A stretch of DNA of 23,038 nt from Ectocarpus siliculosus. Lineage: Eukaryota; Sar; Phaeophyceae; Ectocarpales; Ectocarpaceae. Made by a program: the position numbers and the translations under genes. Shown here piece after piece: positions 6,471 through 17,478 of this stretch. Location of the stretch: contig FN648558.1 in NCBI GenBank assembly GCA_000310025.1, forward strand, positions 145,680 to 168,717, in the 5' to 3' direction. The notes under the pieces are model-generated. The model saw nothing but the letters and a program-made list of their open reading frames with translations, had not been told where the DNA came from and did not search any database. The first letter of the stretch is position 1. Each line of letters opens with the position of its first letter.

Positions 6471-6740
6471 TCATTGTCGGACTCGCCCGGTCTTCCGAAC
6501 TCCCTTCCCCGCTTCATGATCCTCCTGTCGTTGTTCCGGTCGCGAACACGGGCTCCCCGGCCGTTGCCCCCGCGACATCTTTCCACGGTCGAACGGAGTG
6601 TACACCCCCATCACCGGCCCCACTCTCCCAGCCTTCAGCCGGCACAGCTCCCCCGGGTCGAAGGGGCGCAGCAGTGCCCCAAACCAGGCCACATCCATCC
6701 CCTCCGCCTCGTCGTTGCTACTGCTGCCGCTGCCGCTGCA

Positions 6741-6772
<32 letters not shown>

Positions 6773-8732
6773 GGGAACCATCGACCAGGTCGTCCACCCC
6801 GGGATAGTTGGCGCCGCGCACCCCCGAACACACGGTGCCGGGATCGAAAGGGTGCGTGGACGCCCCCCTCTCGCCACAGACGCTGTCATCCCAGCAGCCA
6901 TCAACCTCACCTGCGCACCAACCGCCATCATCGCTGTCGTCGTCAATGCCGTTGACCACCGCTTCCCCGTTGCTGGCCGTCCCCCCAACCGATACGGTGG
7001 GGGAAACGTCACCGACGGTCGCCATCGTAGCGGCCGGTGCCATCGCCGCGGTCGCGGGTGGTGCCGTCACCGATGTCGCCACTCCAGCCGCCGATGCCGT
7101 CATTGTAGCCACCTGCGCGGGTTCTCGAGCCATTCTCCCCGCCGCCGCAGCGGGAGAAACAACACCGTCGGGTGCCGCCGCCGTCGCCGCTGGAACCGCC
7201 GTCGATACCGACGCTCCAAGCACCAACGCGGGCGCTCCGGTCGTTCTCCCCGCCACTGTCGCGGAGATAACAGTGTCGCCGGGCACCGCAACCGTCGCCG
7301 CTGGAACCGCCGCCGATGCCGTTACTCCAGCTGTCGCCGCGAGCCCTCCGGGCGCTTCCTCCGCCGTCGCTGCGAGGGAAACACTACCGCCGCCGTAAGT
7401 CGCCATCGTCGCCTCTGGAGCTGCTGCCGATGCCGCCGCTCCTGCCGCCACTGCAGGAACCCCGGCAATTCCCCCCGCCGCCGTCGCGGCGACAACACTA
7501 CCGCCGCCGTAGGTCGCCGCCGTCGCCGCTGGAGCTGCCGCCGATGCCGCCGCTCGTGCTGCCACCGCGGGGACTCGGGTCATCCCCCCTGCCGCCGTCG
7601 CGGGGGGAACACTGCCGCCAGAGGTCGCCGCCATCGCCGCCGGAGCTGCCGCCGATGCCGCCGCTCGTGCTGCCACCGCGGGGACCCCGGCCGTTCCCCC
7701 CGCCGCCGCCGCGGGGAAAACACTGCCGCCGGAGATCGCCGCCGTCGCCGCTGGAGCTGCTGCCGATGCCGCCACTCCAGTCGCCAACGCAGGCGCTCCG
7801 GCCATTTCTCCCGCCCCAGCGGCGGGGAAAACATCATCGCAGACACTGCCACCAGCGTGAACCATGTCCACAGAATCATTCCATCCACACCATCCGTCAT
7901 CATCACCGTCCACAGCGCCGCCAGCGTGAACCACGTCGACGAAATCAGAGCGGTACTCGCTCTCTGCCATCACCTCGCCGCCAACGTGAACCAGGTCGAC
8001 AAAATCAGAGCGGTACTCGCTCTCTACCACCACCTGCTGCTGTACGACCGAGCTTCCACCGATGTCCATGCAGCTGCCGCCGCCATTGACGCCCATCCAG
8101 CAGCCACCGCGGACGATACGGCCGTCATCCTCGCCGCTGCTGCCATGAAGATGCACGGCGCAGTTCCGCCACATATGGCCGTACTGACCACAGGCGCCGC
8201 ACGTACCCTCGAACCTGCGGGGTGCGGCGCATTCTTCGCCGTGGTGGCCGTTCCTGCCGCACCGAGTGCAATGGTATACCGTACCAGGCGGAGGGGGTGA
8301 TTCCTGCTGGAAATACACGGCGTTGCTCCCGCAGTCATATATCCCACCAACTCCGGTTGGCGGCAGCTGCTGTTGCTGCCGCGCCAACTGCTGGTGCTGC
8401 CGCGCCTGGTGGCTCTGAGTGAAAACGCAATGTTGGTTCTGCTGACTGACAAAACCACCACGAGAACACTGCTGTACCTGCGATGGCTGCTGCTGCCATT
8501 GAGCACTCCATCGCTGCTGCTGTTGTTGTTGTTGTTGCTGCCGCCTAAGTCTCTCCTTCTCATACTCGGCAGCCTCCGCAGCTCTGAGCACCTTCACCAG
8601 CCTCTCCACCTCCGACTCGGCAGCTCGTAGCTTCTCTGCTGCGTTGCGCGACCTCTCCTCCATCTTGATGCACACAACTGTACCCTCCTCCCTTTGCGAA
8701 TCTCTTCCTATTCCGCCGCTTCTCTCCGCCAT
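6471..8732 (-). CDS. gag: E1 Gag-like protein with two CCHC zinc knuckles
   Basis: A 753-residue ORF starts at ATG 8732, about 250 nt inside the 5' LTR. Residues about 23-64 are rich in A/E/R/L heptads (probable coiled coil) and run into a poly-Gln tract at 65-73. Two CX2CX4HX4C knuckles follow: C155-C158-H163-C168 and C178-C181-H186-C191. These are the retroviral nucleocapsid type and would bind element RNA. A SEYRSDFVD-VH-GG repeat lies at about 238-295, then roughly 300 residues of Ala/Gly/Val-rich tandem repeats (about 36 residues each, around 7850-7000), and a Ser tract encoded by CAG/CTG-type triplets near 6735-6770. No capsid fold is recognisable. Knuckles near the N-terminal quarter are unusual, since Gag normally carries them at the C-terminus. 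The opposite strand is also open over this stretch, which I attribute to base composition. Confidence 0.75.
7000..7860 (-). repeat. Tandem Ala-rich coding repeats in E1 gag
   Basis: About eight degenerate units of roughly 34-37 codons encode variations on GGxAGVPAVAARAAASAAAP followed by ATxATxGGSV. Decay increases toward the C-terminal units. Codons are dominated by GCC/GCG/GGC, which opens several frames on both strands. Confidence 0.8.
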
Positions 8733-8983
8733 AGTCTACGCTTGAAAAATATCCCGTACCCTGCTGTCCCAGCCCTGAAGCGCTGTCCCAGCAATACACC
8801 CCCTGCTGTCCCGGTCCCCGATGGCCACCGTCCCAGCTATACACTACCCGCTGCCGTGCTGTCCCGTCCCCGTTGGCCACGTCCCAGCTTAGCTATATAT
8901 ATCGTATTCGCCGCCCCATTGGCCCGGCACATACAGCTCAGACGCCAATACCCACTACCAACACCAGGCCGTACAATATATTG

Positions 8984-9175: not shown

Positions 9176-9215
9176 GTACCAGGTATAATTTTTACACGTG
9201 TGTCACACATATTTT

Positions 9216-9407
9216 ATGTTTGCTCAAGAATTCTGGATTATTTTTCTGCAGGCAACCAAAGAAAAACCAAGACACATGAAACAAATTGAGAGCGCAGGTA
9301 AAATGCCGTCTTGCTCCCAACGTTTTCTTATCGGACTAACCCGTTGCAAACTTCCCAAGATTGCCCTCCTATCATTACTATTGTTTCGGCCTAAACATAT
9401 CTTACTC
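9216..9407 (-). repeat. E2 terminal repeat B2
   Basis: 192 bp matching B1 (9735-9933), from ATGTTTGCTCAAGAATTC to TATCTTACTC. B1 has 7 extra bases (a CTGGCCT duplication near 9911-9917). On the sense strand B2 is the 3' terminus of the element. Its outer edge abuts TTT (9213-9215). Confidence 0.9.
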
Positions 9408-9506
9408 ATAATAAACTACCTACACTTGGTACCTCCTAGTCGTCGACCGACTAGAACCCCCCATCCATGCTCCCCCCTCTCTTGAGCGATAGGTGTGGGT
9501 GGGTGG
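9408..9506. other. Unique spacer between A2 and B2 with a small inverted repeat
   Basis: About 100 bp not shared with the other end. It contains CTAGTCG (9436-9442) and CGACTAG (9448-9454) as a perfect 7-bp inverted repeat around TCGAC. It could be a recombinase-binding or structural site, but nothing in the sequence proves a function. Confidence 0.5.
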
Positions 9507-9734
9507 GAAATCGATCAAATCCTAGGCGGCACCCCGTGTTTGCTGCTCCTCAAAGCTGCTATATCTGCTACTCCTCTCCTTCTCTCAAACGCACTTGCTT
9601 GTCTCTCGCCCAGCGAGAACACAAAAACTTTCTGACACCGAGGCTGTCTCTATTTTTCTTCGATCCCCGCTTTTCCGAATTCCAACACGCCTCCACAAAC
9701 CACATATTCACATACGTACTGAATCTTCCCGTTT
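9507..9734 (-). repeat. E2 internal repeat A2
   Basis: 228 bp, the same length as A1 (16620-16847), with about three substitutions. It is contiguous with B1, so B1-A2 reproduces the sequence expected at the junction of a circularised element. Confidence 0.92.
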
Positions 9735-9933
9735 ATGTTTGCTCAAGAATTCTGGATTATTTTTCTGCAGGCAACCAAAGAAAAACCAAGACACATGAAA
9801 CAAATTGAGAGCGCAGGTAAAATGCCGTCTTGCTCCCAACGTTTTCTTATCGGACTAACCCGTTGCAAACTTCCCAAGATTGCCCTCCTATCATTACTAT
9901 TGTTTCGGCCTCTGGCCTAAACTTATCTTACTC
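9735..9933 (-). repeat. E2 internal repeat B1
   Basis: About 199 bp matching B2. It lies directly downstream of the YR stop codon and directly abuts A2. It includes GCAGGTAAAATGCCG, also in B2, resembling modules in E1. Confidence 0.9.
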
Positions 9934-9978
9934 CATTAGGCATGTCCGATAACCTACTCCTCCGAAACCGCTCCCCGG

Positions 9979-11114
9979 TCATTCCTCGGGTTCCGTAAGG
10001 GCCTGAGACACGAACTTCGCTCCTTCACCCCCAGCCCTAACGTACACCATAAAAGCCGATGACTTCCACCTCCCAGCTCTCTGAATCTGGATTACCGACG
10101 CCCCCATACTTGCTAGGTGCGTGGCCCCCCCGATCCTTCCTGAATGCAATGCATACTTCTGCGGGTCTCTACCCGCCACGCTCACGAGTAACCTGAGGTG
10201 TCTCGATGCCTCTGCCCTCGAAATTATCTTCCACCTGTCTTGTGTCCACGATTGCATCAACGGCGCGTGACTCCCGAGCTCGGGGTGCAGATCTAACAGA
10301 TCCAGTAACACCTTCAACGCCTCTCCTGATCTATCTAGTGACGGTTGCTCCCAAACGTTTTTGATCTGCTTTTGACGCTCTGAACGTGACTTCCACTCGG
10401 CTAGCCTGCCTTCTGTCTGCCCATGCAACCCTTACCGGACCGCAAAAGAAACCGAGGTCTCCTCTAGTCAGGCAAAAAACTGAGTGCACGAGCCCCGAGT
10501 CGTCCGCCCAAATTTCTGAAGCTCGGCACATCAGCAGGTACGAGAGGGCAAGTCCACACCAGATCAACTTCCCTGATTCTCCCGAATGTTCGACCACGCT
10601 CTTTCCAGCTGCTAGCATGTCCCACGAAAGTGGATTCCTAATCTTAGGCTTCGTCTGCGTATTGGCGTGGACCCTATCAATGGTCTTCAACATGGCAAGG
10701 ATCTGGAAATGCGAAGTGGGCAACTCCCATCCTGCGTGCATCTTATGGAAGTACTCGATGGCTGACAGATACCGCGAATAGTCTGACTCTGGTTCTTGTG
10801 ACCGAAACACCGGCAAGCCATGAACACAGACAACTCACGCACCGCACTTTCCACCCCCTCGCTCTCGCTGAGCCACGGGCCCGAACCCGCCCCTGCTCGA
10901 GCCTCCTTCCACGTGTTCCACATCCGTTGATACACCTTATTGGTACCACTTCCCAACGACCCGAAGGTGAGTGCGTTGACCAACCGCTCCCCCTCGTCGC
11001 TCGTGCCTCCCCGGCCATCTTTTGCCTGTGTTCCTGATATTCGATCACCGGGTTTTCACAGCGTAAGGAAATACGTACATTTCGAGGTTCCGTTCTAAGG
11101 TACGACAAATTCAT
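9979..11114 (-). pseudogene. E2 tyrosine recombinase (YR), frameshifted
   Basis: Three reading-frame changes divide this gene (near 11000-11020, 10815-10830 and 10335-10370). The start is ATG 11114, about 230 nt after the pol stop. Segments in order: an N-terminal part with VYQRMWNTWKEARAG; a middle part from about 10816 with LALSYLLMCRASEIW, whose Arg (codon at about 10525) fits the first catalytic Arg; and a C-terminal part with HSGRIGGATHLASMG (His and Arg of the HxxR motif, His codon near 10146) and GRWKSSAFMVYVR, whose Tyr (codon near 10044) fits the nucleophile. This enzyme class integrates circular cDNA of DIRS-order elements by site-specific strand exchange. The catalytic residues look intact but are split between frames. 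The copy is therefore a recent pseudogene, or the assembly has indel errors. Confidence 0.85.
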
Positions 11115-11124
11115 GCCGAACCCG

Positions 11125-11200
11125 GGATAGCCCCAACTTGGCTTGAGGGGAGATCAGCAAAATTGGTCGTCCAAACCAACTCTGCCTCCCCCGGCTATCC
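11125..11200 (-). other. Compact nested inverted repeats between pol and YR
   Basis: GGATAGCC (11125-11132) pairs perfectly with GGCTATCC (11193-11200). Inside, GGGGAG (11147-11152) pairs with CTCCCC (11186-11191), and TTGG (11163-11166) pairs with a nearby CCAA. A small CCAA-C-TTGG palindrome (11133-11141) sits in one arm. The 76-nt segment could fold into a branched RNA in the sense transcript, just upstream of the YR start at 11114. That makes a role in YR translation or RNA processing conceivable, but this is inference. Confidence 0.5.
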
Positions 11201-11346
11201 ATTTTATCAAGGCGTCATGAAACCGTGAGTGTGATGCGTGTCCGCCGCTCCAGCTTACTCGTTATCTCAATTCCTTTGATAATTCGTTGATCGACCAGAA
11301 ACGCGGAGCGGTGTCCTACTGCCCTACCTTCGATCTCTTTGCCGTG

Positions 11347-14300
11347 TCAGATATTTCCTGTTCCTTGGACCATACTGTCCCATACCGAGTCGTCCAGACT
11401 ATCTTTCGGTAATTTCTTCTGGAGAATAATGCTGAGCAACGCTCGTCCCCCTTCCCCGATATCCTGTTGTGTCCACCCTGAGTCTTTCGTGAGCATTCTT
11501 ACGTTGGCGGCGATCTCGTTTTCTTCCCAACGTGAAATCCCGTCCGCGAGTGTGTTCTTTCGACCAGGGATGTGCTTGGCCACGTGGCACCAGCCGCAAG
11601 AAATTTCCATCCTACCCATGAGTCTCATTATGAGGCTAGCGCGCCTGTCACGCGACCCCCCACACCTGTTAGTCCAGCTGACGGCTGACACGTTGTCCCC
11701 GCGCATCAACACCGACTGCCCTTCTTCTACGGGTCGGTCTTTCAGGATCATTTGGACTACCCACGCCGTCATGAACATGCCGGTGAGTTCTAACAGATTG
11801 ATCGTTATGTCTGCCGTCTCCTTTGCCTGCGCCTTGCGCTTGAGCTCCGCGGACAGTGAGGGTTCGATCGTGTATCTCCAGAAAGTCTTGAGTTCGGGGC
11901 AGTAGCCGCCAACCGCTGTGAAGCTAGCGTCTGAGAGGTAGAGACGTGATGGTGCTCGTTTAACGTGGAGTAAGAACGATGCGCTGAGGGACTCCCCTCG
12001 ATGGGCCAGGGGCTGGTTGAGGGCCCACTTCCAGAAGGCGATATCGCCGTGGAACTCTCTACCCAAGTCTACTAGACGTCGTGACCGTGCGTGTCGACTG
12101 GCTTGGGTATGCAGACCCGATAGGTGGAGCAGTTGCCACACAAAGTATCTACCAGCCCTGATGACATAGGTGAGGTTCCAAAGATTTCCTGCAATGCTGA
12201 GGACTTCTTGAACACTGGCCTTCTTCCTATCGTGGGGCCAAGCTACCTCTAGGGTGTTCCGGATCGCGCTTACCCGTTCGGGAGTAGTTGCAATTCTGCC
12301 ATCATGCGTGTCTATGGTGTACCCCAGGGCCTCTATGACCGTGTCCCAGTCGGTGCTCTTTTTCGGGGCAAGAATGGGGGTTTCTCCGACTTCTCCCTCG
12401 CCGAACAGTCTGACATGGTCCGAAGCTAATGAGGCGGAAGCAATGAGTGCCGATTCGTCGGTGGGGTCATGCTGGACCTTCTTGAGCAAGAAATCGTCAA
12501 CGTAGACCCTGGCCAAGAAATCGTCCGCGGGGCCACCGCCTCTATGCGGTTGTACGCCTGCCGACGAAGGTATTGGGGTTGGGGTGCCCTTTTCCCAAGG
12601 GGGTTTTATTTTGACGTGAGACATCATTGCGATTCCCTCTGGTAGTAGTCGGGCGTTCGCGAGGGACGTGTTGCGGTGCGAGTGCTCTGCAGCGGAGGCT
12701 AACACACCCCACAATCCTGGTGAAGCTGCCCAGCCAAATGTCAGCCGTAGATCCGCTACTAGCACGTCTCCCATCACGTAGCAAAAGTTGTGAGCATGCT
12801 CTGGTGAAATCCTAACATTTCTGAACGCTGAGGTGACATCAGCCTTGGCTGCGAGAATTCTCTTGTCAGGCCATCTTACCCGTAGGCTAGTGAGCTCCTC
12901 GAGGAAAGCTGGTAGTGCTTCGCCGCACAGGCAACGTGGCACTTCAGACATGATGGTATCTTTGTTGAGCCCACCTTTTGACCCCTTGCTTGTGCTTGGG
13001 TCAAAAGAGAAGTCGTTGATGATCCTCACTTTTTTTCCTGGGACCGCTCCCAACGGAGCTACTCTAATCCCACGTACGTCCGATGCGTTCGCCTTTCTCA
13101 GGACGATACACCTATTACGCTTGACATCGTCGCATAGTTTTTCCCACACTTGTGTTTGGTGATCGTCTACGCTACGGTGGTTGCCGTATGCCAAGGATTT
13201 CTTGAGATTTTGCTGCGAGACTAGAGTGGGGGCAGGGGCTCCTTCACCGACTATCTCCATGAGGTCATCGATACCCGGGAAACCCTTCTCCTCTCCGAAA
13301 TACTGCTTGACGTCGCTCACGTCCAACGGCGGTGACACCAAAGTGCCGCCGATTCCCCTCGCGACGTCTCCCAGCCTTCCATCGTGGAGCTTTACCAAAT
13401 CACTACCAATATCCGCCATCTTCCCAATGATACGTTGTTTCTCGTCTAGTGAGTGTAGGCTTGACGCGAGCATGCTTCTCTGTGCCTCGAGTCTATCGGT
13501 CAGAGTTTTTAAGTTTCTCGAAAAGGTTGTCTTTTTTGGACTCTCTAGGGCCGGAGGTTCTTTCCCCGCCCCAAAGTGAGAAATCGCTGAATTCGACCCG
13601 CAACCCTGTCGCATTGCTTTTGTGATGTCAGCGGCCCTAGCAGTGTCCGCCGCTAGTGTCCTACGTGCCAACGATGCATCCCCCGGGGTGTCCGCCCCCG
13701 GGGTAGCTTTTGACACGGTCATGGTGTCCGCCAATTCCGTGTCGTTCCCGCGAATGGTGTCCGCCAATCGGGGCTGTGTGACTGACAAATTCTTACGCAG
13801 GGTGTCCGCCCCGTGTATGTCCTTCTGCACACTACTGGTGTCCGCCAGTATTTTCTGTTTTCCGACAACGCTCGCGGCGTCCACCGCTTGCGTGCCGCGG
13901 TGCCGATAATGGTCGCCCGGGGTGTCCTCCCCCGGGGCGACTGCATTGCATTGTTCAGCACGTGTGGTGTCCGCCACAGTCTTTGTGGTGTACAAGGCAG
14001 AGCAGTTATTGATCCCGCTATTGGTGTCCGCCAATAGGTTTTCCGTTAGTGTGTTTTCCGCGGGAACGGCGTCCACCGTTTGCGGGAGTGAGGGAAATGC
14101 GTGTTCACATTGCACCCTACTGGTGTCCGCCAGTATTTTTTGTTTTCCGACAACGCTCGCGGCGTCCACCGCTTGCGTGCCGCGGGGCCAATTATATTTG
14201 CCCGGGGTGTCCTCCCCCGAGGCGACTGCATTGCATTGTTCATCACGTGTGGCGTCCACCACAGTCTTCGTGGAGTACAAGGCAGAGCAGTTATTGATCC

Positions 14301-14639
14301 CGCTATTGGTGCCCGCCAATAGGTTTTCCGTTAGTGTGTTTTTCGCGGGAACGGCGTCCACCGTTTGCGGTGGAGTGAGGTTAATGCATGTTCACACCGG
14401 GTGTCCGCCCGGTGTGTGTCAATATTCGCATAATTGGTGTCCGCCAATAGTTGTGACTTATCTATCACCAGTGCGGTGTCCTCCGCTTGTGTGTTATATG
14501 ACCCGTACTTAGCGCCGGGGGTGTCCGCCCCCGTAGCTACTGTTTTTGACGTTTTGGCGTGAGTGGTGTCCGCCACTATGCAGGGTGAAAACGAATCCAA
14601 ACAGTTGACAGTATGGGAAATTACAGGTTCGCAACTCAT
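11347..14639 (-). CDS. pol: E2 reverse transcriptase - RNase H polyprotein (N-terminal frameshift)
   Basis: The probable start is ATG 14639, 60 nt after the gag stop. A 2-nt insertion (TG at 14371-14372, absent from the other copy of the internal duplication) shifts frame. The downstream frame is then open for 1004 codons to 11347. Numbered from codon 14361, RT motifs are RIIND (446-450), KADVTSAF (Asp508), TFGWAASPG (541-549) and YVDD (catalytic Asp622-Asp623, near 12498). RNase H follows with SDASF (Asp811), LLELT (Glu858), RGDN (Asp889) and NTLAD (Asp940). All catalytic acids are present. No protease or integrase is seen, as expected for DIRS-order elements. The first roughly 240 residues are repeats of A-D-T, V-D-A or E-D-T encoded by the hairpin array at 13637-14577, unlike any RT domain I know. 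Confidence 0.9.
13637..14577 (-). repeat. Array of 22 constant-loop, variable-stem hairpins in pol
   Basis: Plus-strand loops are TGTCCG, CGTCCA, TGTCCT or TGCCCG, so the sense loop core is GGAC (GGGC in the one TGCCCG unit). Loops start at 13644, 13689, 13725, 13758, 13803, 13839, 13878, 13923, 13968, 14025, 14070, 14124, 14163, 14208, 14253, 14310, 14355, 14402, 14438, 14477, 14522 and 14567. Nearly all have GG before and CC after the loop. Beyond that the stem sequence changes but stays complementary: pair 3 is Watson-Crick in all 22 units (three pair types) and pair 4 in 19 of 22 (all four pair types). The longest perfect stem is 9 bp (14393-14401 with 14408-14416); others are 4-7 bp or longer with one mismatch. 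Spacings are 33, 36, 39, 45, 54 or 57, all multiples of 3, except one 47. Each unit encodes ADT, VDA or EDT in the same phase. Confidence 0.92.
13833..14402 (-). repeat. 285-bp tandem duplication inside the hairpin array
   Basis: 13833-14117 and 14118-14402 align along their length. Both start with TACTGG and share CGACAACGCTCGCGGCGTCC and CAGAGCAGTTATTGATCCCG. Six consecutive hairpins are thus duplicated (loops 13839-14070 and 14124-14355). Differences between copies include loop changes (TGTCCG to CGTCCA at 14253) that keep the stem intact, and the 2-nt TG insertion at 14371-14372. Confidence 0.9.
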
Positions 14640-14698
14640 GCTCTCACCGTAAAACACAGCGGGTGCCACCGACCCGGGAAGGGGAACTCCCACGCTCG

Positions 14699-15932
14699 CT
14701 ACTGTCCTTCTGCTGTCCGCAAAGGCATTCGCTCCCGTGCCAAGCTCGCCACCCCCCCTTGTCGGCCCCACCTCGTGGAAGTGGGGCCCGCACCGTCACG
14801 GATTGGTACCGCCACGGCCTCCTCCCGCGCGCCCCCCACCTCCTCCTCCTCCAGCTGCTCCTCCTCCCCGGCCGCCTCCATGACTGTACCTCGCGACTGG
14901 TGCTTGTGTCGCTCTCGGGGCCGGGGGGGCACGAGCGGGCGGAGCGGGCGGAGGGGGGGGGGGGGGAGGAACAAGCAGGCAAGAGTGACGGGTGCCGCTG
15001 GGTGTGCCCGTGCGGCGGGGGTGCGGGCAGGTTGACCCTGTGAAGTAGCTTTGCGTTTGGTGCTAGCGGCGGCCGATTTTGGCTGCTGCTGACGGGCTAG
15101 ACCCCCCTGCAGGAGACCCACCATCGAAGAAGCCGTACCCTCCGCAATCAGGATCAACGTCCGTGAGAACTGCGGGACTTGGATCGCCCCCACCGTATTG
15201 GGGGGTGGAGGGGAGAGGGTGTTGCGCTGCCGGAGCGCCCTAGCTTCGGTGGTCAGACGACTGACGAAATCGGCCCAATCGAGGTTGGCGTCTTGCTTGA
15301 ACCTGGCGAAGACGTCGGCCTCGCGGCCCCTGAACTCAGCGCAGTGGCGGGAAGTGTAGTGGCGGAGGTCCTCGGAGATCCTGAAGAGTTCCCGGAGAAA
15401 ACAGGCCAACCCTGTCGGCCCCGGCCGGCGAGGCGCCCGCCATGCCGTCCTTGATGAAGACTTCCAGGACGCGAACGAAGGTGTCGAGATGCACGTCGAA
15501 CGTGCGTGTCACCGCCGCTACCCCCGGGGGACGCGGCGGCGAGAACGCCGCAATGTCGATGGCGCCGAAGGTAAGCAGCGCGTGCAGGCCCGGTTGCGGG
15601 TGGGCCACGTCCCGAATGATGTGGTCGAATTCGCCCCCCGTCATGACAATGGGCGAGAAGGTAGCACCTCGCATTAGGTACAGGGCCGCTTGGCCATCTT
15701 TTTCCCACGTGCGGCCCTCCAGCTTTTGGGCTTCTTTCAGCCGATGGGCATTGTAAACAGGCGCGGCCCCCGGGATGCTCGCGAGCTGTTGGTATCCCTG
15801 GGGCGCGGCCGACGAGGACTGGAGGTAGTGCTGGTTGGGGTAGGCCTGGAGTTGTTGGTGTTGATACTGTTGTTGCAATGGTTGCGGCTGCGACTGCTGC
15901 CGGTGCTGCTGCTGCTGCTGCTGGTGAGGTTG

Positions 15933-15986
<54 letters not shown>

Positions 15987-16616
15987 AGGTTGTTGCTGCT
16001 GCTGCTGCTGCTGCGGCGGCGGCGGCGGCGGCGGCGGCGGTTGGACCAGGGGGAGGACTACTGACTGACTATTGTTGTAGGCGGGGCCATCCCGGGCATT
16101 GTTGTGGGCCGCGGCGCCCTGGGCGGGCTGCCGGTTGCCGGTCAAATTCACGACCACATCCTGGAGAGACCGAATCTGTTGCTGTTGTTCCTGGAGAGAC
16201 CGAATCTGTTGTTGCTGGCGACTGCCCTGGGACACGAGCTGTTGTAGCAGCGCGAAGAGGTTCGGATTACTCCCACTGCCCTCCTGCTGCTGTTGCTGCG
16301 GCTGTTGCTGGGGCTGCTGCTGTTGCTGCTGCTGTTGCATCAGCTGAGGTTGGGGGGCTCCGTGAATCATGGGCAGCGGCGGCGGAATTGCTGCCGCCGG
16401 ACCGCCGTTTTGTTGCTGCGGGTGGCCATGCTGGAGATCCTGCTGCTGCTGCTGCTGCGGCGCCTGACCTGCTGCTGCTGCTGCTGCCTGTTCTGGGCGT
16501 TCCCGCCACGGGCGGCCGAGCTTGGGGGACTGCCGTCCGCCGGATTGCCTTGGCTGGCCACCGCGACGCCCGCGGCGCCGTTCGCCCCTCGCCGGTTGCC
16601 CGTCATTGCCGTCCAT
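14699..16616 (-). pseudogene. gag: E2 Gag-like protein, frameshifted
   Basis: The start is ATG 16616, a few bases inside the A1 boundary. The N-terminal half (about residues 1-260) is basic, then dominated by Gln/Pro/Ala tracts encoded by CAG runs (plus-strand CTG, about 15905-16014, 16285-16340 and 16438-16490). A structured segment follows with LEGRTWEKDGQAALYLMRG and HALLTFGAIDIAAF, which looks like a Gag core domain though I cannot assign a family. The frame must switch near 15405-15440; the continuing frame reads LACFLRELFRISEDLRHYT and on to a stop at 14699. No CCHC knuckle is visible. The switch could be a mutation, an assembly indel in a GC-rich run, or programmed frameshifting. Confidence 0.75.
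15905..16040 (-). repeat. CTG/CAG trinucleotide run and GGC run in E2 gag
   Basis: The plus strand shows near-continuous CTG triplets followed by a CGG/GGC run (about 16014-16040). In sense these encode poly-Gln then poly-Pro in the Gag N-terminal half. Such tracts are prone to slippage. Confidence 0.95.
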
Positions 16617-16619
16617 CCC

Positions 16620-16847
16620 GAAATCGATCAAATCCTAGGCGGCACCCCGTGTTTGCTGCTCCTCAAAGCTGCTATATCTGCTACTCCTCTCCTTCTCTCA
16701 AACGCACTTGCTTGTCTCTCGCCCAGCGCGAGCACAAAAACTTTCTGACACCGAGGCTGTCTCTATTTTTCTTCGATCCCCGCTTTTCCGAATTCCAACA
16801 CGCCTCCACAAACCACAGATTCACATACGTACTGAATCTTCCCGTTT
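16620..16847 (-). repeat. E2 terminal repeat A1
   Basis: 228 bp, matching A2 at 9507-9734 with about three substitutions (in the GCGAGAAC/GCGCGAGC context and CCACATATT/CCACAGATT). It is the 5' end of the element on the sense strand. Its outer edge shares TTT (16845-16847) with the B2 flank, and homology stops just before the gag ATG. Confidence 0.92.
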
Positions 16848-17336: not shown

Positions 17337-17478
17337 CTTTCTATTTTTTTTTCCGTTTCTCTCTTTGTCTGTCTCTGTGTCTCTTTGTGTGCCTGTGTGT
17401 CTTTCCCTGCCTTCTCACTCTCTCCTTTGTTTCGTATCTCTTTCTTTTTCTGTCTCTCTCTATCTCTCTCTTGTCACA
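17337..17478. repeat. Pyrimidine-rich (CT/TGTCT) low-complexity tract
   Basis: A nearly pure pyrimidine/GT stretch of TCTCTC, TGTCTG and TTTC words between R1 and the E3 5' LTR. No gene is apparent. Confidence 0.8.

Follow-up and report, generated by a model that had tools for sequence, protein, structure and literature searches.

A coding array of covarying hairpins with a constant loop in an Ngaro-like retrotransposon of Ectocarpus siliculosus

A stretch of 23,038 nucleotides (nt) of contig FN648558.1 of Ectocarpus siliculosus (hereafter the window) carries an Ngaro-like, putative tyrosine-recombinase retrotransposon, with the minus strand as its sense strand, in which the N-terminus of Pol is encoded by an array of 22 short hairpins that present nearly the same hexaloop on stems of differing sequence. 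It is well supported that these hairpins are selected as nucleic-acid structures, and they appear to be held more strictly than the surrounding peptide repeat, because their arms covary, third codon positions vary little within the stems, and the spacer is only weakly constrained. More tentatively, and with both the binding partner and the role in packaging or assembly being what we infer, the array may consist of recognition hairpins in the sense RNA that are bound repeatedly by a protein, probably Gag.

ANATOMY OF THE HAIRPIN ARRAY

The preliminary description of this DNA had reported 22 coding units with a fixed loop, GG/CC closing and covarying stems. We find the same array again on the minus (sense) strand, with identical counts of Watson–Crick pairs at level 3 (22/22) and level 4 (19/22), and the duplication of units 6–11 and 12–17 that it had noticed proves to be a tandem repeat.

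13636..14580, minus strand: array of 22 hairpins with hexaloop NGGACN and variable complementary stems, coding for the Pol N-terminus
13826..14396, minus strand: tandem duplication of 285 nt, units 6–11 and 12–17

The units lie at 13648–14571, each coordinate being the plus-strand position of the first G of GGAC. The hexaloop NGGACN, closed by GG/CC, is found in 21 of the 22 (CGGACA in 13, TGGACG in five, AGGACA in three), and the exception at 14314, which was added to the set, is of the form NGGGCN (CGGGCA). Two further GGAC sites, 13822 and 13661, were left out because they have neither GG/CC closing nor a stem. From level 1 to level 8, Watson–Crick pairs number 22, 21, 22, 19, 15, 11, 11, and 10 of 22, the sole exception at level 2 being a G·U pair in unit 13648. 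Past pair 2 the arms have little sequence in common between units. Local folding gives several units outer helices past internal loops, such as the GACACGG/CCGTGTC helix outside a 3 × 3 internal loop in unit 13729.

Read in frame, the units encode x-A-D-T-x, x-V-D-A-x or x-E-D-T-x, with A-G-T once, and in 22/22 the third base is G in the A/V/E codon and C in the next. Pair 2 connects two wobble positions, and pairs 3 and 4 connect the codons flanking the peptide motif on either side. Units 1–5 of the window copy lie in a different frame from units 6–22; in the C11 copy (L083) the entire array occupies one Pol frame of 1147 amino acids (aa), near its N-terminus, followed by reverse transcriptase (RT) and RNase H motifs (identified by eye) and a candidate recombinase region.

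PAIRING BEYOND CHANCE AND BEYOND THE PEPTIDE

Complementarity was set against two nulls, one permuting right arms among units and the other redrawing synonymous codons (codon-preserving), and with all 22 units both are rejected. When one half of the duplication is dropped, the remaining 16 units form 40 of 48 pairs at levels 3–5, against 16.5 ± 3.6 with permuted arms (P ≤ 5e-5) and 28.8 ± 2.1 under the codon-preserving null (P ≤ 5e-4). The number of independent units, earlier put at about 16, has to be lowered to about 12, since units 1–4 sit in an older copy of the duplicated block (13800–13977 against 14399–14576, 68% identity). With these also dropped, 29 of 36 pairs are formed at levels 3–5 (11.6 ± 3.1 permuted, P = 5e-5; 20.5 ± 1.8 codon-preserving, P = 3e-4), and at levels 6–12 the same 12 units form 44 of 84 (30.9 ± 3.6 permuted, P = 6e-4). 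Homologous units of the block differ in a coordinated way: ATTGG/CCAAT of unit 4 corresponds to ACTGG/CCAGT of unit 17, and AGTGG/CCACT of unit 1 to TGTGG/CCACA of unit 14, both arms having changed in each case with pairing kept. The earlier proposal that complementarity exceeds what the ADT/VDA/EDT peptide demands is thus borne out with 22, 16, and 12 units, as the codon-preserving shuffles, named beforehand as a possible refutation, fall short of the observed pairing.

COVARIATION AND CONSTRAINT AMONG OTHER COPIES

A search of the host genome (G000; 189 Mb in 492 contigs) yielded 21 matching stretches. Twelve copies were aligned, comprising that of the window and others 93–99% identical to it, and the diverged copies C55, C14/C16, and C25 supplied further units. 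Stems in these other copies are complementary too, the second point on which the preliminary description had staked its claim. The arms of 38 units (16 from the window, six from C55, three from C16, 13 from C25; C14, a near-copy of C16, was left out) covary with a score of 0.485. Shuffles give 0.161 ± 0.028, none of 500 scoring as high, and a control with the partner slid gives 0.06–0.14. The 22 diverged units alone form 35 of 44 pairs at levels 3 and 4, against 15.8 ± 3.3 under arm permutation (P = 1e-4). Diverged candidates with two core mismatches, of which there were eight, had been dropped unless paired, a rule that retained one unit, from C25, and excluded the other seven, most of them unpaired; with the retained unit removed as well, the 21 others give 33 of 42 against 14.8 ± 3.2 (P = 1e-4).

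Among the 12 aligned copies, diversity is 0.026 at stem and loop sites and 0.052 elsewhere in the array (P = 1e-4), and at third codon positions stems have a diversity (π) of 0.021 and the rest of the array one of 0.057 (P = 0.004); third positions at pair 2 are variable in one of 46 columns. Spacer diversity at first, second, and third codon positions is 0.056, 0.043, and 0.057, and as the three vary alike outside the stems the spacer peptide appears hardly constrained. At pair 4 of unit 13807, G·U, G–C, and A–U are all found across copies. In two copies, L010 (C2) and L012 (the second C8 copy), the loop of unit 21 is inverted between intact arms, a trace of arm-to-arm template switching or of inversion within the hairpin, from which it follows that arm-to-arm switching does occur.

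RELATED FAMILIES

A protein search with the array region alone scored none among 5958 candidates, and the RT part of Pol retrieved 20 homologues of 38–71% identity (8000 candidates scored), several of which have other peptide repeats at the array's place. Unrelated peptide repeats occupy the same N-terminal Pol place in P0003, P0005, P0006, P0011, P0012, P0013, P0015, and P0016, and by their sequence some homologue repeats (F-P-H-G-K, D-P-x-x-x-G-E) could encode short hairpins. In P0001 and P0002 the residues flanking ADT-like motifs are codon-complementary beyond permutation (P = 0.013 and 0.009, from 13 and 10 motif matches to a pattern chosen after looking, each including one match probably outside the array); the same test is not significant for P0016 (P = 0.20) or for family C (P = 0.12), which is introduced below.

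A tblastn search with the RT part returned 69 matches within this genome, and the regions preceding RT were examined for 20 of them, nearness being judged by RT identity. At L084 (C171, 74% RT identity) the 1.5 kb before RT hold stops and no array, and the corresponding regions of L091 and L092 consist largely or entirely of N, that on C209 being all N and that on C17 N at 1045 of 1551 positions. The nearest other family found, family C, comprises seven loci (L085, L086, L090, L093–L095, L097) with 55–64% RT identity, and it has a hairpin array of its own at the same Pol place: a 120-nt coding repeat in which CTAGTG-ggaa-CACTAG, CCCCG-ttac-CGGGG, and CCAATA-cgtg-TATTGG are flanked by GAC and AGA. 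L085 has 18 hairpins with a stem of at least 5, against 5.1 ± 1.8 after codon permutation, and a single unit of the family has three against 0.51 expected (P = 0.003); L086 was translated and left out of the hairpin scan. The folding score of family C (z = −5.36) was discarded as evidence, being inflated by near-identical tandem copies, and one unit alone gives z = −0.21.

Seven further loci (family D: L087–L089, L096, L098, L101, L102; 52–54% RT identity) carry long peptide repeats, and in L087 and L098 sense folding is ordinary (z = −1.6 and −0.5) and antisense folding low (−4.9 and −2.6), the L087 antisense value being inflated by a long duplication. L103 (53%) has other repeats, with an ordinary sense fold (z = −0.33) and seven hairpins in 1.6 kb, and L099 and L100 (38%) have no repeat region and 13 and 14 hairpins, mostly in gag, all three counts standing without a null.

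Searching the host genome with a paired-core pattern returned 220 matches, against 10 for a reversed control; among the 100 of these that were listed, 87 belong to copies of the array and 13 lie outside them. Six of those 13 come from one GPP-like (collagen-like) repeat region, G000:C9:3234121-3234868, which fits the pattern by its composition. In viral contigs a narrower pattern (GGCGGACACC twice) was found in 31 stretches with one match each and no array, and Pol patterns matched 10 stretches, none of which encodes a relative. The window's four Rfam matches, all under the gathering score, lie in triplet repeats at 15846–16398.

A PROPOSED ROLE IN SENSE RNA

How might such an array work? In the arrangement that we tentatively favour, each unit would be a short stem of free sequence presenting one common NGGACN hexaloop, and a protein would bind the loops singly, most likely the element's own Gag, in which a CCCH-type motif is seen in the C11 copy and also in several families related to it. 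With roughly 22 such sites the array would then tag full-length RNA and seed the particle or condensate in which reverse transcription takes place. Stems would vary because only pairing is needed, and their differences may make mispairing between neighbours and jumps from repeat to repeat less likely. A multivalent, protein-read RNA tag fits the data because the exposed loop is fixed, the stems are free, the run is dense, the hairpin varies less than the spacer, and the nearest family has another type of array.

That selection acts on sense RNA and not on DNA is weakly shown. Within the inner five pairs, the 16 window units and C55 each have two G·U and no A·C, and C16 has one and none, as does its near-copy C14; the window, C55, and C16 together thus have five G·U and no A·C. 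Two RT stretches downstream of the array fold in the sense orientation no better than codon permutations (z = −1.0 and +1.1) and have no excess of hairpins.

A second structure on the sense strand precedes Pol:

14796..14798, minus strand: UGA just 5′ of Pol, in the frame that runs on into Pol in the C11 copy
14764..14788, minus strand: stem-loop (GGCCCCAC...GTGGGGCC) starting 7 nt past the UGA

The C11 copy and four family groups (L085/L093, L098, L099/L100, L103) share UGA or UAG, seven bases, and then a hairpin of 7–9 bp, with stop contexts UGA CGG, UGA CA, and UAG GGA. The arms read GGCCCCAC/GTGGGGCC, GGCCCCA/TGGGGCC, GGCTCTGCC/GGCAGAGCC, GGCTCTGCC/GGCAGGGCC, and GGCTCTGTC/GACAGGGCC, with compensatory base differences between the five groups. 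A gag-like motif lies in frame 5′ of the stop in L093, L098, L100, and L103, and in the C11 copy the open gag frame crosses the stop in another frame. Judged from sequence, the arrangement is consistent with stop-codon readthrough for Gag-Pol.

Several observations weigh against a sense-RNA recognition array. First, strand bias is not uniform: the C25 copy has four G·U and six A·C, so that A·C is not the rarer, and sense and antisense RNA of this family (family A) differ little in folding, the C11 array having z = −4.9 in sense and −4.2 in antisense relative to codon permutation. Second, the 22 distinct departures from the commonest Watson–Crick pair at pairs 1–5 of the 12 copies comprise six G·U, seven A·C, and nine unpaired states with no compensatory change; as all are one-sided and G·U and A·C are about equal, recent copies resemble decay without strand bias. 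The left G of pair 1 is moreover variable in 26% of units. Third, relatives do not all conform, as a constant loop cannot be general when the nearest other family, C, has varied loops; a single family C unit is also ordinary in folding energy, and in the two family D loci tested hairpins are not in excess (L087, nine against 8.7; L088, seven against 8.3). Rfam, finally, gives no match to the array at E ≤ 1.

At a slightly lower level of confidence, the Pol N-terminus of these Ngaro-like elements may be a site of rapid turnover of coding hairpin arrays: RNA hairpins would be selected, the peptide would be largely a by-product, and each family would have its own array grammar, as if RNA tag and reader protein co-evolve. 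The grammars seen are a constant loop with free stems in this family and constant flanks with differing stems and loops in family C. If so, each family's RNA would be recognisable to its own machinery. We know of no account of how tyrosine-recombinase retrotransposons select their own RNA, and a dense, covarying, in-frame hairpin array is a direct candidate for such a signal. It is also a natural case of a coding tandem repeat seemingly kept for structure while the spacer peptide drifts, and families with and without hairpins are available for comparison in one genome.

ALTERNATIVE EXPLANATIONS

First, the hairpins could act in the sense RNA for something other than packaging, such as pacing the translation of Pol, dimerising the RNA, or offering a platform to a host RNA-binding protein or for N6-methyladenosine (m6A). 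The same covariation and structure-level selection would be expected, and we consider this the most serious contender, though rather unlikely. GGAC is the core of the DRACH motif for m6A and 16 of the 22 loops read GGACA, which fits it, but the five TGGACG loops and CGGGCA fall outside DRACH. Also against it, GGAC cannot pair with itself, which precludes kissing between loops, and Gag/Pol readthrough seems to be served by a separate hairpin 5′ of the array.

Second, selection may act on single-stranded or cruciform DNA, with hairpins in the cDNA serving strand transfer, second-strand synthesis, or recombination by the tyrosine recombinase. The near-equal folding of both strands in family A and the unbiased recent changes would be expected of a DNA form, and the element does have a candidate recombinase region and split direct repeats; yet the inner pairs of three lineages show five G·U and no A·C, and the array lies in pol, far from the expected place of recombination at the split direct repeats. 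We regard this as improbable.

Third, and marginally less probable again, the hairpins may have a mutational origin without function, template switching during reverse transcription having copied arm onto arm and so perfected quasi-palindromes. This process would alter both arms together, and the inverted unit 21 loops in the C2 and second C8 copies are what an arm-to-arm switch leaves. However, stem and loop sites show roughly half the variation of the spacer among copies, synonymous sites included, the states G–C, G·U, and A–U coexist at one pair (unit 13807, pair 4), none of the 22 recent departures alters both arms, the two RT stretches lack a hairpin excess, and a fixed loop is not predicted. 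The explanations listed in the preliminary description have accordingly separated: repeated structures in the genomic RNA are now favoured, while palindrome-perfecting template switching has lost ground because stem sites evolve more slowly than the spacer and because of the three states in unit 13807, and palindromes for sequence-specific DNA binding because the arms past pair 2 share so little sequence.

That the peptide repeat alone matters, with complementarity following from amino acids and codon bias, is very improbable, for although a family without hairpin excess has peptide repeats at the same place, codon-preserving shuffles are rejected, the amino acids flanking ADT change codon-complementarily, and synonymous stem sites are the least variable.

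COMPARISON WITH KNOWN SYSTEMS

The earlier statement that no described counterpart was known is weakened, as coding-region packaging stem-loops with a common loop motif are known from alphaviruses, where the signal in the nsP1/nsP2 coding region comprises four to six stem-loops whose loops conserve GGG at their base (PMC8233893). According to that source, disrupting the stem-loops or the loop motif ends preferential packaging (PMC8233893). This is the nearest analogue, likewise having several stem-loops in coding sequence with a conserved G-rich loop motif, and in the array NGGACN recurs in 21 of 22 units with covarying stems. The loop here is, however, NGGACN and has no GGG at its base, and there are 22 units, grown by duplication, in the Pol of a retrotransposon rather than a few in an RNA virus. 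By analogy the array probably works like an alphavirus-type packaging signal, and it is not classed as a member because loop motif, number, host, and origin differ and binding is only proposed.

Dispersed packaging signals of single-stranded RNA viruses have a common loop motif on varying stems and are scattered along the genome and degenerate; the array, in contrast, is dense and in-frame with one strict loop. For MS2, satellite tobacco necrosis virus (STNV), and enterovirus, such signals are described as many stem-loops read by coat protein (PMC3662417, PMC7793301, PMC4836477).

The array has further partial likenesses among cellular RNAs and genomes. GGA-loop arrays of the CsrB/RsmZ type and the METTL16/MAT2A hairpins likewise consist of hairpins in series that present an unchanging loop motif on stems of free sequence and are bound by a single protein, and they differ in lying in non-coding or untranslated RNA of other organisms and in having another loop. 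Rickettsia palindromic elements, dispersed insertions of one sequence, also place palindromes within open reading frames (ORFs); here the stems differ and, as far as the pattern matches listed show, with 87 of the 100 in its copies, the array keeps to one element family and is not dispersed into unrelated genes. No Rfam family is matched by the array at or above its gathering threshold.

The element shares its order and split direct repeats with Ngaro retrotransposons of Ectocarpus and Cafeteria, whose accessible descriptions do not mention a hairpin array (PMC12477816, PMC8547959). Neither "hairpin" nor "palindrom" occurs in the main text of PMC12477816, nor "hairpin" in that of PMC8547959, and in the literature on tyrosine-recombinase retrotransposons that was searched we found no description of such an array.

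THE HOST ELEMENT AND ITS SURROUNDINGS

The remaining parts of the element are as follows.

9213..16847, minus strand: Ngaro-like, putative tyrosine-recombinase retrotransposon holding the hairpin array, 7.6 kb, with split direct repeats
16620..16847, minus strand: split direct repeat A1, 5′ end, 98.7% identity to A2
14699..16634, minus strand: gag-like region, Q/P-rich, with two open frames in the window copy (15336–16634 and 14699–15508)
11347..14391, minus strand: Pol open frame, units 6–22 followed by a putative reverse transcriptase (YVDD box) and RNase H-like motifs
9979..10834, minus strand: putative tyrosine recombinase region, frames 10331–10834 and 9979–10431
9732..9933, minus strand: split direct repeat B1, 96.0% identity to B2
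9507..9734, minus strand: split direct repeat A2, partner of A1
9213..9407, minus strand: split direct repeat B2, 3′ end, partner of B1

The repeats thus run A1-[ORFs]-B1A2B2, the split-direct-repeat order of an Ngaro-like element (DIRS order). PAT-like elements have similar split repeats, so the assignment to Ngaro rather than PAT is provisional. A1-[ORFs]-B1A2B2 is the layout defined for Ngaro elements (PMC8547959), and both Ngaro and PAT-like content has been reported for Ectocarpus (PMC12477816).

In the C11 copy the gag-like region is one frame of 571 aa, without a Pfam match; a CX8CX4CX3H motif seen in it by eye is lacking from the gag-like region of the window copy. By eye, a CCCH-like motif is present in the gag-like regions of L083, L093, L099, and L103, in the form CX8CX4-6CX3H in L083, L099, and L103. 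The YVDD box is invariant or nearly so across 19 aligned Pol proteins, the Pfam match to RVT_1 is weak (E = 0.054, on P0016), and a PDB profile search matched no chain. The candidate recombinase region of the C11 copy matches Phage_integrase (PF00589) at E = 0.001 and 19.3 bits, under the curated cut-off of 27.1.

Elsewhere in the window, further direct repeats at 17478–17943/22578–23028 (94%), 18749–19056/20087–20394 (99%), and 4164–4550/16931–17336 (85%) suggest other elements or nested insertions. An open frame of 754 aa at 6471–8735 on the minus strand, which contains tandem repeats of 111 nt and a pair of CCHC-like knuckles (CTRCGRNGHHGEEC, CGACGQYGHMWRNC), is perhaps the gag of another element.

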